The translations under genes were made by a program, and so were the position numbers. From the IMG/VR virus record IMGVR_UViG_3300042317_000174, positions 1-30,555 of that record: 30,555 bases of DNA; one strand, 5' to 3'. Positions 25,681-30,378 of the stretch are shown in pieces. Source of the DNA: a virus. The notes below the pieces were generated by a model that made no database searches, was not told where the DNA came from, and saw only the letters and a list, made by a program, of their open reading frames with translations. The number at the start of each line of letters is the position of its first letter. Within the stretch, counting starts at the first letter, position 1.

Positions 25681-25708
25681 AAGCCAGCCTTTCGGGGTTG
25701 GCTTTTTT
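25681..25708 (+). terminator. Intrinsic terminator of the late region
   Basis: AAGCCAGCC (25681-25689) pairs with GGTTGGCTT (25696-25704) over nine pairs with one wobble, loop TTTCGG, then T-run to 25708. It ends the structural and lysis transcripts. Confidence 0.9.
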
Positions 25709-25712
25709 GTTT

Positions 25713-25720
25713 TATATTTG
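25713..25720 (+). promoter_or_regulatory. Possible promoter of a short RNA
   Basis: TATATTTG, an exact -7 match, begins five bases after the late terminator. A TTG at 25698-25700 is only 12 bases upstream, so the -33 part is weak or missing. Confidence 0.4.
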
Positions 25721-25725
25721 TACTA

Positions 25726-25791
25726 CTTTAGTAATTCCAAAACAAAGTAAATCTAATTTGATCGCCCCATTCTATACGGATGGGGTTTTTT
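25726..25791 (+). ncRNA. Possible ~65-nt small RNA
   Basis: Between the -7 element at 25713-25720 and a second terminator at 25765-25791 lies about 65 bases without an ORF. A six-pair helix is possible between TACTTT (25724-25729) and AAAGTA (25744-25749), followed by the terminator stem. A promoter-to-terminator unit of this size fits a small RNA, but the start site is a guess and the promoter is incomplete. Confidence 0.3.
25765..25791 (+). terminator. Second intrinsic terminator
   Basis: CCCCAT (25765-25770) pairs with ATGGGG (25780-25785), nine-base loop, then TTTTTT at 25786-25791. Confidence 0.82.
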
Positions 25792-25980
25792 CGTATTATA
25801 ATAGGATATTTGCAACTATTTGCGTACCTAATCGGGTATAAACCGACTAAACTGACATTATATTGCACCTTTTCGGGTACAAAATAAGGGTAAAACCTTA
25901 AAACGTGAAAAAAATTTTGCGTCTACAAGCCCCGTCTAATAAGGAAATCTAAAAAAATGTTAAAAAAAGTTGTTAAAAAG
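25792..25980. other. Noncoding control region upstream of early promoter
   Basis: With the terminators before it, this belongs to a 386-bp gene-free stretch (25651-26036). It holds repeated GGGTA-type sequences: CGGGTATAAA near 25834, CGGGTACAAA near 25875 and AGGGTAAAAC near 25887. It also has a TCGG/CCGA inverted pair around the first and then A/T-rich runs before the promoter. The repeats could be operator sites for an early regulator or part of a replication origin. Nothing coding is visible. Confidence 0.4.
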
Positions 25981-27255: not shown

Positions 27256-27398
27256 AATGGAAACTAACTTACTTCGTCGGATCTAAAGCCGTCGAAAGCT
27301 GGGTTTTAAACTCGCAAAGCCTAGCATATTGGAAAAAACAAGACTTACTAGCAACAAGACGCTACGAATTAGGAAAATTTAAAGTAGAACAAATATGA
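27252..27398 (+). CDS. 48-residue hypothetical basic protein
   Basis: Short ORF with ATGA overlaps at both ends. The peptide has strands at its start ('KWKLTYFVGSKAVESWVL'), a basic helix ('YWKKQDLLATRRYELGKF') and no known motif. The tight coupling between two more credible genes is the main support. Confidence 0.5.
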   Translation: MKWKLTYFVGSKAVESWVLNSQSLAYWKKQDLLATRRYELGKFKVEQI

Positions 27399-27826
27399 AC
27401 CGACTTACCTCAATACACGAACTAATAGAAAAATACGGACTACTAGACAAGTCAAGACGCCGAGACGTACTTTTTAAACGCTATTACCTTTACAATGAAT
27501 TACGTACCTGTGGGCTTAGCCTTTCGGAAATTGGCCGTGTTTTCAACAAGAACCATGCTACAATCTTACACGGGTTACGCGTTCACAAAGACTTAACTAG
27601 TTACCGAGACGTTGACTACGTAGCTGAGACGTGCGCGCTTCAAGCCTACCTAGACGGCGCGGAGTTGCCAGACGTATCGAAAGTGTTTAAGACGCAAAAA
27701 GACTACGATCTAAAGACGGACGTACTTAAGGCCCACAACCTAGCCTCGTTTAAACGTGTACAAAGACGGATAAAAATGGGTTTTTACGAAGAAATTTTAC
27801 AAGACAAGCAACTTTTAGTAGAATAA
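27395..27826 (+). CDS. DnaA domain IV-like HTH protein
   Basis: A 143-residue protein. Residues 30-66 ('YNELRTCGLSLSEIGRVF', then 'NKNHATILHGLRVHKDL') match the origin-binding HTH of DnaA domain IV (S-L-x-E-I-G-x-x-F-x-x-x-H-A/T-T-I/V), without the AAA+ domains. The rest is basic and helical. It may bind the phage origin or DnaA boxes and take part in initiation, or displace host DnaA. It is located two genes before the helicase-like ATPase. A promoter-like TACATTTG starts a new transcript right after it. Confidence 0.72.
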   Translation: MNRLTSIHELIEKYGLLDKSRRRDVLFKRYYLYNELRTCGLSLSEIGRVFNKNHATILHGLRVHKDLTSYRDVDYVAETCALQAYLDGAELPDVSKVFKTQKDYDLKTDVLKAHNLASFKRVQRRIKMGFYEEILQDKQLLVE

Positions 27827-27831
27827 AACGT

Positions 27832-27839
27832 TACATTTG
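27832..27839 (+). promoter_or_regulatory. -7 element upstream of the leader RNA
   Basis: TACATTTG matches TAnnTTTG, six bases after the preceding stop. No good TTTG is found at the usual distance upstream. The expected transcript starts at about 27845, exactly at the first base of the leader's first hairpin. Confidence 0.5.
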
Positions 27840-27844
27840 TACAT

Positions 27845-27934
27845 GGTTCGCTCTCACACCATAGAACCTAAAGGTATTATTAACCCTTGTAATGAAGTAG
27901 ATGTGAGAGCCTACGGATTTATGAGGGTTTTTTT
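27845..27934 (+). ncRNA. Candidate cis-regulatory leader with crossing helices
   Basis: Three helices can be drawn. (a) GGTTC (27845-27849) with GAACC (27864-27868), a hairpin with a 14-base loop. (b) GCTCTCACA (27850-27858), inside that loop, with TGTGAGAGC (27902-27910), nine perfect pairs, forming an H-type pseudoknot with (a). (c) AACCCT (27882-27887) with AGGGTT (27924-27929) followed by seven Ts, a terminator-like helix that crosses (b). Helices (b) and (c) should compete or stack, as in attenuators and riboswitches. It lies just upstream of the replication gene at 27953. No known family recognised. Confidence 0.5.
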
Positions 27935-27952
27935 ATGCTTAACAAACAACAA

Positions 27953-28576
27953 ATGGCAAAAGACAAGAAAAGTTTTTTATTGTACGTGGATTTGATTCAT
28001 ACAATTGAAAAGCTAAACGACGAACAAGCGGGAAAATTGTTTAAACACGTATTGAGGTACGTTAACGACAAGAACCCAGAAAGCGACCAATTTACTGAGG
28101 TTGTATTCGAACCAATTAAACAAACGTTAAAGCGTGACTTGGAAAAGTACGAAGGTATACGACAACGTAATAGCGAAAACGCAAAGAAGCGATGGGATGC
28201 CACCGCATGCGACCGCATACCAAATATGCCAGCGGTTACCAAAAATGCCGATAATGATAGTGTTAATGATAATGATATAAATATAATAGACTTTGATTCT
28301 TTACTTTTATTATTGCAGGCTACATTTAAACGAAAGTTTAGAGTAATGAACGACAAAGTTAAAAGGTCGTACAAAGCACGTATAAAAGAAGGGTACACAA
28401 TAGACGACATACACAACGCTATTAAAAACTGCCAATCTAACGCCTACCATAAAGACAATAACTACCAATATTGTACGCCTGAGTTCTTTAGTAGGGCAGA
28501 CATTTTAGATAAATACGCGGACAGAACAATAGTAACCGAAAGTGACGCTATCTTAGCACACCTAAAAAACAATTAA
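27953..28576 (+). CDS. Replication initiator-like protein (DUF6291 plus phage C-terminal domain)
   Basis: A 207-residue protein starting 'MAKDKKSFLLYVDLIHTI', where a DUF6291-like N-terminal domain normally begins; ATG 27935 would add six residues but lies in the leader's T-run. Residues about 5-75 form that domain, 75-105 a basic, polar linker rich in Asn/Asp, and 115-195 ('KRKFRVMNDKVKRSYKAR', 'YTIDDIHNAIKN', 'YCTPEFFSRADILDKYA') the conserved C-terminal domain of phage replication proteins that often recruit helicase. A role in origin recognition or helicase loading is inferred, supported by the helicase-like gene following at once. Confidence 0.72.
   Translation: MAKDKKSFLLYVDLIHTIEKLNDEQAGKLFKHVLRYVNDKNPESDQFTEVVFEPIKQTLKRDLEKYEGIRQRNSENAKKRWDATACDRIPNMPAVTKNADNDSVNDNDINIIDFDSLLLLLQATFKRKFRVMNDKVKRSYKARIKEGYTIDDIHNAIKNCQSNAYHKDNNYQYCTPEFFSRADILDKYADRTIVTESDAILAHLKNN
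28245..28300. other. AT-rich iterated stretch inside the initiator gene, possible origin
   Basis: The linker between the two initiator domains is encoded by repeated TAATGATA-type units (GATAATGATA, TTAATGATAATGATA) in a strongly AT-rich context. In lambda-like phages the origin lies in the same place, between the domains of the O gene. This is a positional analogy only. Confidence 0.3.
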
Positions 28577-28577
28577 A

Positions 28578-29507
28578 ATGCTACTCAAACAAGGCGACGC
28601 ACTACAGTACTTACTAGACGTAAGGGACGGCAAAATAAAACAAGGGCTAGGCTTAGATTGTTACCTAGACGAACACCTTAAATTTAAACCTAAGCAACTC
28701 AATATAATTCTAGGGCATGACAACGTAGGTAAGACGTACTGGATAAATTGGTATTTCCTTACCCTAGCTTTAAAGCATGACTTAACTTTCTGCATTTGGT
28801 CGGGTGAAAACCAAAAGGGGCAAATTTTGCGCGACATGGTTCAAATGTATCGAGGTAAACACTTTAGTAAATTAACGCATTCACAAATAGCGGGCGACGT
28901 TGCGTACTTAGAACAATACTTTTCGTTCATTGATAACTCGAATTTGTACAAACCAGAACAAATTTTAGACCTATTCAAACAAAGTGGGTGCAAAGTGGGG
29001 CTTATTGATCCATTCACGGGCCTAGACCGCGAAATGTCGTTTGCTGGGAATTACGAATTTATGAATACCGCCCGTCAATTTGTCAATAAAACGGGCATGA
29101 CTATCTACATAAACACGCACCCGAATACTGAAAGCGGACGTAGCGGTAACTTATACACCGAAGGCGAACTAAAAGGGCATTTAAAAGCACCTTTAAAAGA
29201 CCACGTTGAGGGCGGTAAGGCTTTCTTAAACCGATGCGATGACATGCTAGTAATACACCGACTAATTAAACACCCAGAATACAAATTTAAAACTTGGGTA
29301 AACGTCGAAAAAGTTAAGGACACCGAAACGGGCGGTAAGCATACCGAAATTGATTACCCAGTAGTTTTTGACTTTAATAGCGGGTTGGGCTTTACAATTA
29401 ACGGAATAGACCCCCTACGAAAACACCGACCAAAAGACATACAAAAAACAATAACCGACGGCATTATTTCGACAAGCCAAAAATTACGCAACTTAAACAC
29501 TTTTTAA
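28578..29507 (+). CDS. DnaB/RecA-like replicative helicase ATPase
   Basis: A 309-residue P-loop ATPase. Walker A 'GHDNVGKT' (46-53), 'FCIWSGENQKGQI' with the catalytic Glu, Walker B 'KVGLIDPF' (139-146) and sensor 'IYINTHPNTESGR' (about 175-187) are in the order of the DnaB/SF4 C-terminal domain. There is no DnaB N-terminal domain, so it is a core-only helicase or a RecA-like loader. It follows the initiator by one base, a standard initiator-helicase pair. The phage has no primase or polymerase of its own, so host enzymes are presumably recruited. Confidence 0.82.
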   Translation: MLLKQGDALQYLLDVRDGKIKQGLGLDCYLDEHLKFKPKQLNIILGHDNVGKTYWINWYFLTLALKHDLTFCIWSGENQKGQILRDMVQMYRGKHFSKLTHSQIAGDVAYLEQYFSFIDNSNLYKPEQILDLFKQSGCKVGLIDPFTGLDREMSFAGNYEFMNTARQFVNKTGMTIYINTHPNTESGRSGNLYTEGELKGHLKAPLKDHVEGGKAFLNRCDDMLVIHRLIKHPEYKFKTWVNVEKVKDTETGGKHTEIDYPVVFDFNSGLGFTINGIDPLRKHRPKDIQKTITDGIISTSQKLRNLNTF

Positions 29508-29508
29508 A

Positions 29509-30378
29509 ATGAAGACAAGTAACAATGTAATATGCGCAACAAGTGCAGGTTTGACTTCGGTAATGATGGCAATTAAAATGAAAGAATGGTATCCACAATG
29601 CAATGTAGTAAACGTGTTTTTAAATACAGGTAAAGAAGACCCGCGAAGCCTTGAATTTATGCATGAGTGTGATAATTATTTTAACTTGAATTTAGTTTGG
29701 TTAGAAGCGGTTATAAATGGCAAAAAACAAGGTAGCACCTACAAGGTTACCTCTTACTACAATTTAAACACGGACGGAAAAATATTTGAAAAAGGAATAC
29801 AAAAATACGGAATACCGAGTAGGGTAAATAAATGGTGCAACCGAGAATTGAAGTTAGAACCATTAAGAAAATATGCAAATGATATTTTTGGTTTTGATAA
29901 TTGGTCTTTAGCACTTGGAATAAGAATAGACGAAATAGACAGGGTATCGGAAAAATACAAAGAAAATAATACTTTTTACCCTCCATTTGAAAACAAAGTA
30001 GACCAACGCGAACGAAATAAGTTTTGGAAAGACCAACCCATTAAGTTAAAAATAAAAGGATACGAAGGTAATTGCGATTTTTGCTTTGAGAAGTCAAAAA
30101 GAAAACGAATGACCATAGCTTTAGAAAATCCTAATAAATTAATTTGGTGGGATAAAATGGAAAAGAAATATGCGTTAATTGAAATTGAAGGTAAAGACCA
30201 ATACAATTCTATGGTTCAAAGCGGCGGGGCTTATTTCGGCAGATTAAACGAATCTATTGAGCAAATAGTTGAAGACGCTAAAAAACCTTTCTATAAAGCA
30301 ACTGACGAATACGTATACGAAAATGACTTATTTGATTTTGAGACTGATTGCGGCATAAATTGTAAAATTGAATTATAA
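29509..30378 (+). CDS. PAPS-reductase-like PP-loop protein
   Basis: A 289-residue member of the adenine-nucleotide alpha-hydrolase superfamily, close to phage PAPS-reductase-like proteins. The PP-loop is 'TSAGLTSVMMA' (11-21), where the usual SGG-x-TS has Ala in place of the first Gly. 'NVFLNTGKEDPRSLEF' follows as expected. 'KWCNRELKLEP' (C110) corresponds to the conserved Cys/Lys region. C189/C192 ('CDFC') with C281/C285 at the end may bind zinc or an iron-sulfur cluster. Possible roles are sulfur or nucleotide metabolism, or DNA modification. AT-rich codons with many GAT suggest recent acquisition. Confidence 0.75.
   Translation: MKTSNNVICATSAGLTSVMMAIKMKEWYPQCNVVNVFLNTGKEDPRSLEFMHECDNYFNLNLVWLEAVINGKKQGSTYKVTSYYNLNTDGKIFEKGIQKYGIPSRVNKWCNRELKLEPLRKYANDIFGFDNWSLALGIRIDEIDRVSEKYKENNTFYPPFENKVDQRERNKFWKDQPIKLKIKGYEGNCDFCFEKSKRKRMTIALENPNKLIWWDKMEKKYALIEIEGKDQYNSMVQSGGAYFGRLNESIEQIVEDAKKPFYKATDEYVYENDLFDFETDCGINCKIEL

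Follow-up and report, generated by a model that had tools for sequence, protein, structure and literature searches.

A covarying leader RNA with a kissing contact and a terminator-like stem precedes replication genes in phages of Flavobacteriia

Introduction

In translational pseudoknot switches of the SAM-II and preQ1-II type, a hairpin loop pairs with the ribosome-binding region, and in the copy-control leaders of IncB/IncIalpha plasmids (repZ), the loop of a 5' hairpin regulates a replication gene by pairing at a distant site. Phage HK022 carries two put RNAs (putL and putR) of about 70 nt with two stem-loops each; putL lies just downstream of its promoter, and RNAs of this type cause antitermination in cis, bound to the beta' zinc-binding domain (PMC9378689). 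The HMP-PP riboswitch (thiS motif) stands before a gene; its pseudoknotted fold rests directly on the stem of an intrinsic terminator, and it is characterized by exclusive states that share bases, a strongly conserved terminator loop, and association with one pathway (PMC6478431).

The leader RNA described here lies in a 30.6-kb virus record, which is referred to as the window. It shares with the put RNAs a place behind early phage promoters, the occurrence of two copies in a genome, two stem-loops and, putatively, an action on elongation, but put is an antiterminator from another host phylum that lacks an embedded terminator and for which the part of the HK022 account consulted describes no kissing of two hairpins (PMC9378689); sequence similarity between the two would not be expected. 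On that description, the two are set apart: a put-type RNA would consist of two stem-loops in about 70 nt with no embedded terminator, whereas this leader has a terminator-like stem, a U-run, and a kissing contact. With the HMP-PP riboswitch, it has in common the pseudoknotted fold built on a terminator, but its folds are compatible, its loops drift, and the genes behind it are diverse. Like the repZ leaders, it combines loop-loop pairing with a replication gene and with loop sequences that diversify between relatives; unlike them, it contains a terminator and also precedes non-replication genes, and no antisense RNA or antisense promoter was identified for it.

Results

The leader occupies an intergenic stretch of about 126 nt between an upstream gene (27395-27826) and the likely start codon at 27953 (ATGGCAAAAGAC). 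The product of the upstream gene matches the DnaA C-terminal helix-turn-helix domain below the family cut-off (29.6 bits against 31.5, E = 7e-7). The putatively gated gene (27953-28576, plus strand) encodes a DUF6291/Phg_2220_C replication-initiation-like protein (Pfam PF19808, E = 1.2e-23; Phg_2220_C, E = 9e-5; PHROGs replication initiation families, E = 4e-6 to 8e-5), and the next gene of the operon (28578-29507, plus strand) encodes a primase/helicase-like protein (PHROGs primase/helicase, E = 1e-19). Tenacibaculum phage Gundel_1 shows a similar order, with a DnaA-like gene, a gap, a replication protein, and a DNA replication protein. Further downstream, the window carries a PAPS-reductase-domain gene (29509-30378; PF01507, E = 7e-5) on the 3' side of the replication genes, where similar PAPS-reductase-type genes are also found in Riemerella phages RAP44 and GRNRAP2.

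The promoter -7 element TACATTTG (TAnnTTTG), of the Bacteroidetes type, is read directly at 27832-27839 on the plus strand; in the alignments, its counterpart in relatives is TATATTTG or a close variant. The element is also present in relatives found by blastn, tblastn, and covariance-model searches, all of which identified leaders without requiring a promoter. From its position, transcription of the leader would start at hairpin P1 or a few bases before it.

The structured RNA spans positions 27840-27934, with all of its parts on the plus strand. Hairpin P1 (27845-27868; GGTTC/GAACC, 27845-27849/27864-27868) carries a 14-nt loop, L1, that holds the 5' strand of the kissing helix K (GCTCTCACA, 27850-27858). 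A single-stranded linker (TAAAGGTATTATT, 27869-27881), near-invariant in the columns of alignments A1, A3, and A4, leads to the 5' strand of the terminator stem P2 (AACCCTTGTAA, 27882-27892), which forms 11 bp with the 3' strand TTATGAGGGTT (27919-27929). Above P2 follow an internal loop identified in the alignments, with UGAA (27893-27896) opposite GGAU (27915-27918), and hairpin P3 (27897-27914; GTAG/CTAC, 27897-27900/27911-27914). The loop of P3, L3, contains the 3' strand of K (TGTGAGAGC, 27902-27910), the complement of 27850-27858; K joins the two hairpin loops L1 and L3 and is, accordingly, a kissing contact. A U-run (T7, 27928-27934), of which two of the seven T lie inside helix P2, closes the terminator.

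The initial annotation, made from the window sequence, had described a leader RNA that starts from a promoter-like element, folds into a pseudoknot across a terminator helix, and precedes a replication gene. That description stands, and each element on which it was built (the promoter-like TACATTTG, GGTTC/GAACC, the nine-base complement, a helix AACCCT/AGGGTT at 27882-27887/27924-27929, and T7) was found in its place; P3 and the full 11-bp extent of P2 had been missed. The helices had further been described as crossing and mutually exclusive. P1, K, P2, and P3 do cross topologically, but their bases are disjoint and all of them are conserved together; they form one kissing-hairpin fold and are not exclusive states. 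The start codon, taken to lie just behind the T-run, is likely the one at 27953, which is kept in relatives, rather than 27935. Folded as a nested structure without pseudoknots, the window leader has a z-score of -1.56, equaled by 17 of 200 shuffles; because it is only modestly stable for its composition, the case rests on its relatives.

Relatives were collected by a tblastn-guided scan with the DUF6291 protein, which yielded 80 viral loci; blastn with the leader matched about 30 of these and, in a search of named phages, Gundel_1. In 22 distinct leaders, 96.5% of the cells of a four-helix model are standard pairs, and 22 of the 27 pairs show two-sided changes. K is paired in 100% of these leaders, with five of its seven pairs double-changed. 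The covariation score is 0.739, compared with 0.225 for shuffles, none of which matches it, and at most 0.14 for slid controls; when the partners are slid by one column, pairing falls to 45-51%. In 36 type-1 leaders (the subtype of the window), 89.2% of the base-pair cells are kept, with two-sided changes again at 22 of 27 pairs, and K, 7-9 bp long, is 92.9% paired, again with double changes at five of seven pairs. All these counts are contingent on MAFFT alignments that were not fitted to the structure. By helix, two-sided changes occur at all five pairs of P1, all four of P3 (GTAG/CTAC in the window, with many variants among relatives), and 8 of the 11 pairs of P2 (36 leaders). The variants of K, all paired, include CTCTCAC/GTGAGAG, GTCTCAC, CTTCGAC, GCTGGAC, ATCCGAC, and CTCCTAC. 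Lack of covariation in the 9-bp helix had been named in advance as grounds for giving up the claim; K covaries in both sets, and the compensatory changes sought in relatives are present in every helix that had been named. Since this covariation goes beyond what one sequence could show, we accept the leader RNA as real, and the comparison confirms the window leader as a member of a conserved structured RNA.

A fold descriptor (TAnnYTTG, P1, K of at least 6 bp, P2, and a T-run) gave 108 matches in 0.96 Mb of fetched loci and one match in twice as much control sequence; the loci had been chosen as related, and the count gauges specificity rather than frequency. The promoter element and T-run are demanded by the descriptor, and their presence in its matches is not evidence for them. 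Three subtypes were distinguished, with a common layout of TAnnTTTG promoter, P1, linker, P2, P3, U-run, and a start codon about 20 nt further on. Type 1, to which the window belongs, has a 14-nt L1, a K of 7-9 bp, and the internal loop UGAA/GGAU. Type 2 has an L1 of 6-7 nt that lies wholly within K (xxGCAG with CTGCxx) and the internal loop AGUA/GAA, which we take to resemble a sarcin-ricin/bulged-G module. Type 3 has a GAAG/CTTC hairpin. The linker consensus is AAAGGWATTATT in type 1 and AAAAACATTATT in type 2. Type 2 covaries as well (29 leaders, 88.3% paired, K 96.5%), with a count of further pair types not above that of shuffles. The type-1 model R1 finds type-2 copies in loci L100 (E = 7e-4) and L085 (E = 1e-3), and the type-2 model R2 finds the type-1 copy in L078 (E = 6e-4) and the copy in Flavobacterium phage 11b (E = 8e-4); by this mutual detection, types 1 and 2 share one structured RNA family.

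Among named isolates, located by scanning fetched homologous loci for the fold, it occurs in Gundel_1 and Muminvirus tooticki6-1 (two copies each), Cellulophaga phages phi19:3 and phi13:2, Flavobacterium phages elemoA and 11b, FCOV-F13, and Olleya phage Harreka_1; some of these copies are weak in the models (E of 0.1-0.9) and rest on the descriptor and position. A blastn search of named phages with a type-2 leader and the type-1 leader of L083 gave chance matches only. No match was found in Bacteroides phage B124-14 or in the first 50 kb of crAss001, Cellulophaga phi38:1, and phi17:2, and none was found beside the replication gene in Riemerella RAP44 or GRNRAP2. In some phages, each of two operons has its own leader, and the two differ in subtype and K sequence; in L085, L100, L115, and L116, two such leaders lie about 2 kb apart within one phage. 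Type 1 looks phage-borne, because a pattern scan of 84,980 prokaryote genomes gave three matches, in unrelated taxa and none with the fold; the strict pattern could miss diverged prophage copies. The initial annotation had recognized no named family, and Rfam 15 gave no match at the gathering score for the window or 18 related loci; the best hit at E ≤ 10 was mir-989 noise (E = 3). No description of a leader of this kind was found in Rfam or in the open-access papers searched, and subscription journals may hold one. On these sequence comparisons, we file it as a hitherto uncatalogued RNA family, carried by phages of Flavobacteriia, that would belong to a known general kind, the structured cis-regulatory leaders.

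The leader most often lies 5' of replication genes. The initial annotation had tied it to a DUF6291-type gene, which is correct for the window; the link is not essential, since leaders also precede genes for an AntA/KilAC antirepressor, a ParB-N6-methylase, NUMOD4-HNH and GIY-YIG endonucleases, and small proteins of unknown function. The collection of loci is biased toward DUF6291, the protein used in the first scan, and the diversity of genes shows in RNA-pattern scans free of that bias. In six loci (L066, L067, L078, L117, L127, and L139), the gene immediately behind the leader, after a longer spacer of 46-49 nt, encodes a recurrent protein of about 60-70 aa (for example, MVQLIFYGSVK... or MAVQLKFYGTE...); two of these proteins were scanned against PHROGs, with no match. 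Homing-type endonuclease genes (GIY-YIG-like, NUMOD4-HNH) lie directly behind the leader in L103, L124, and L139 (first copy). In most of 77 distinct leaders, the distance from the stem to the start codon is about 17-26 nt, although the genes are not homologous. The spacer contains a TAnnTTTG promoter in only 6 of the 77, all similar in sequence, and the spacer of the window (about 20 nt) has no promoter of its own.

P2 has the features of an intrinsic terminator. In the window and across the family, its base is G+C-rich, the part above is A+U-rich, and a T-run follows. Among the relatives listed, nearly all have this run directly after P2, mostly with a length of 5-8 T; in a few, Gundel_1 among them, it is interrupted. 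The run is present as well in relatives that were identified independently of the descriptor. With L3 free, the stem energy of P2 is predicted at -15.1 kcal/mol for the window leader, against a family median of -17.0. P2 was not listed by a terminator search that allowed loops of 3-8 nt, owing to its large structured tip. Inspection of type 1 revealed no conserved antiterminator, that is, no terminator-excluding structure of the kind that defines a switching attenuator; hence, an explicit ON conformation cannot be drawn for the window leader. One candidate, AAGG (linker) with CCTT (P2), present in some sequences, was rejected because P2 varies (GCCATT) opposite an unchanging linker, and the pairing does not covary. 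A coaxial stack would have the linker lengthen with the helix; the measured correlation (r = -0.79) is dominated by where the boundary between linker and P2 is drawn, and the idea was dropped.

A genuine mutually exclusive partner was found only in type 2. In 20 of the 29 type-2 leaders, the L1-loop sequence is repeated exactly in the start-codon region, downstream of the U-run, and stops 0-6 nt short of the start codon (K'; AAGCAG, GAGCAG, AGGCAG, GTTGCAG, GGACAG, or GGGCAG; for example, L010:2985-3000, L028:3006-3020, and L114 on the minus strand), with 0 of 232 matches across classes. Because K' repeats the L1 loop, L3 can pair with either L1 or the ribosome site, but not with both. In L112/L119 (L1 GGGCAG, L3 CTGCCT, K' AGGCAG), K' fits L3 better than L1 does, which indicates that K' tracks L3. 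In nearly every locus, K' occurs only at the start codon of the leader's own gene, with no K-type site before other start codons. Some type-2 subsets (the GTGCAG, GTCGCAG, and GGTCAG classes, L085/L100, and L115) lack K', as does type 1, including the window's own leader; hence, K' is an addition and not part of the core. A loop that pairs with the ribosome region and would hide the start site recalls the SAM-II and preQ1-II switches, from which type-2 leaders differ in having a second, competing loop partner (the P1 hairpin), an intrinsic terminator in between, and no known ligand.

Discussion

We favor, with moderate confidence, a 5' leader that acts in cis on an early phage operon, gating expression through its embedded terminator and, in type 2, through the start site. 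The transcript would begin at P1 or a few bases before it, and L1 would kiss L3, the apical loop of the P2-P3 hairpin. P2-P3 would act as an intrinsic terminator that RNA polymerase must pass to make the replication gene; that P2 and the U-run terminate is suggested by their features. Kissing through K may tune read-through, by altering either the formation of P2 or the response of the polymerase, and the leader would thereby set the amount of early (replication) gene product. In type 2, K', which lies after the terminator, would pair with L3 and so occlude the translation start, and L1 would relieve this by holding L3. A protein of host or phage, a small molecule, or folding kinetics alone may shift the balance. 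L1 is synthesized before L3, and L3 before K'; this order points to kissing as the default, with loss of P1 or of its grip freeing K' to pair with L3. More tentatively, L3 at the tip of the terminator could be the hub of a switch, either held by the 5' hairpin in the kiss or captured by the copy of the L1 loop at the start codon, coupling termination to translation of early phage genes. The hub sequence differs between phages and between the two leaders of one phage, a variation that would keep circuits apart.

Some features of this cis-acting leader would also suit a put-like antiterminator, with the RNA binding the polymerase from which it emerges and making it resistant to P2 and to later terminators of the early operon. 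Leaders lie right behind promoters, number one or two to a phage, occur on different operons, and keep their shape while helix sequences drift, much as in the HK022 precedent of two put RNAs. In these leaders, however, the terminator belongs to the element itself, and antitermination would have no need of the start-codon partner of L3 in type 2; we regard this explanation as unlikely.

P2 and the U-run could alternatively serve stability or the formation of the 3' end of a separate RNA. A stable, trans-acting RNA of about 95 nt would account for the complete set of promoter, compact fold, and terminator, the downstream gene then living on leak-through, and the window contains another promoter-plus-terminator unit (25713-25786). 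That unit (25706-25800) has an TATATTTG promoter at 25713 and a strong terminator hairpin (25764-25786) within about 50 nt, resembles by its sequence an independent RNA of about 70 nt, and has near-identical copies in L003 and L051. For the leader, we consider such a role improbable, mainly on account of gene placement: with the gene close behind P2 and a promoter-free spacer at near-constant length before unrelated genes, transcription from any upstream promoter must read through P2 and the U-run, which favors attenuation over a free-standing small RNA. The cis partner of L3 at the start codon in type 2 also argues against action in trans, as does the absence of the K sequences of the window (7-9 nt) from both strands of the rest of the record.

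If P2 did not terminate, the leader might protect the 5' end of the mRNA or enhance its translation, the knotted 5' end blocking decay while the U-run and the short, A/U-rich spacer feed ribosomes; the structure would indeed sit at the very 5' end. Against this role, the family retains the arrangement to be expected in a terminator, a stem with a G+C-rich base and a T-run behind it, and K' in type 2 would block the ribosome site rather than feed it; we think the role quite improbable. A ligand-sensing riboswitch with a terminator-embedded aptamer, for which the pseudoknotted fold on a terminator, the conserved unpaired linker, the interchangeable non-Watson-Crick modules UGAA/GGAU and AGUA/GAA, and the HMP-PP precedent (PMC6478431) might speak, is very unlikely, as the downstream genes (replication, antirepressor, methylase, and homing nucleases) share no pathway, K and P3 drift freely, and no long, strictly conserved pocket was seen.

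Little of the gene control of Bacteroidota phages has been mapped, and the cis-acting leader before replication genes offers a concrete handle on when these phages begin replicating. The hosts concerned are Flavobacterium, Tenacibaculum, Cellulophaga, and Olleya, and the F. columnare phage FCOV-F13 is relevant to fish farming. If the switch centered on L3 proves true, these leaders would be natural orthogonal RNA switches, with one scaffold and swappable loop codes of 6-9 nt, which would be useful for RNA design.
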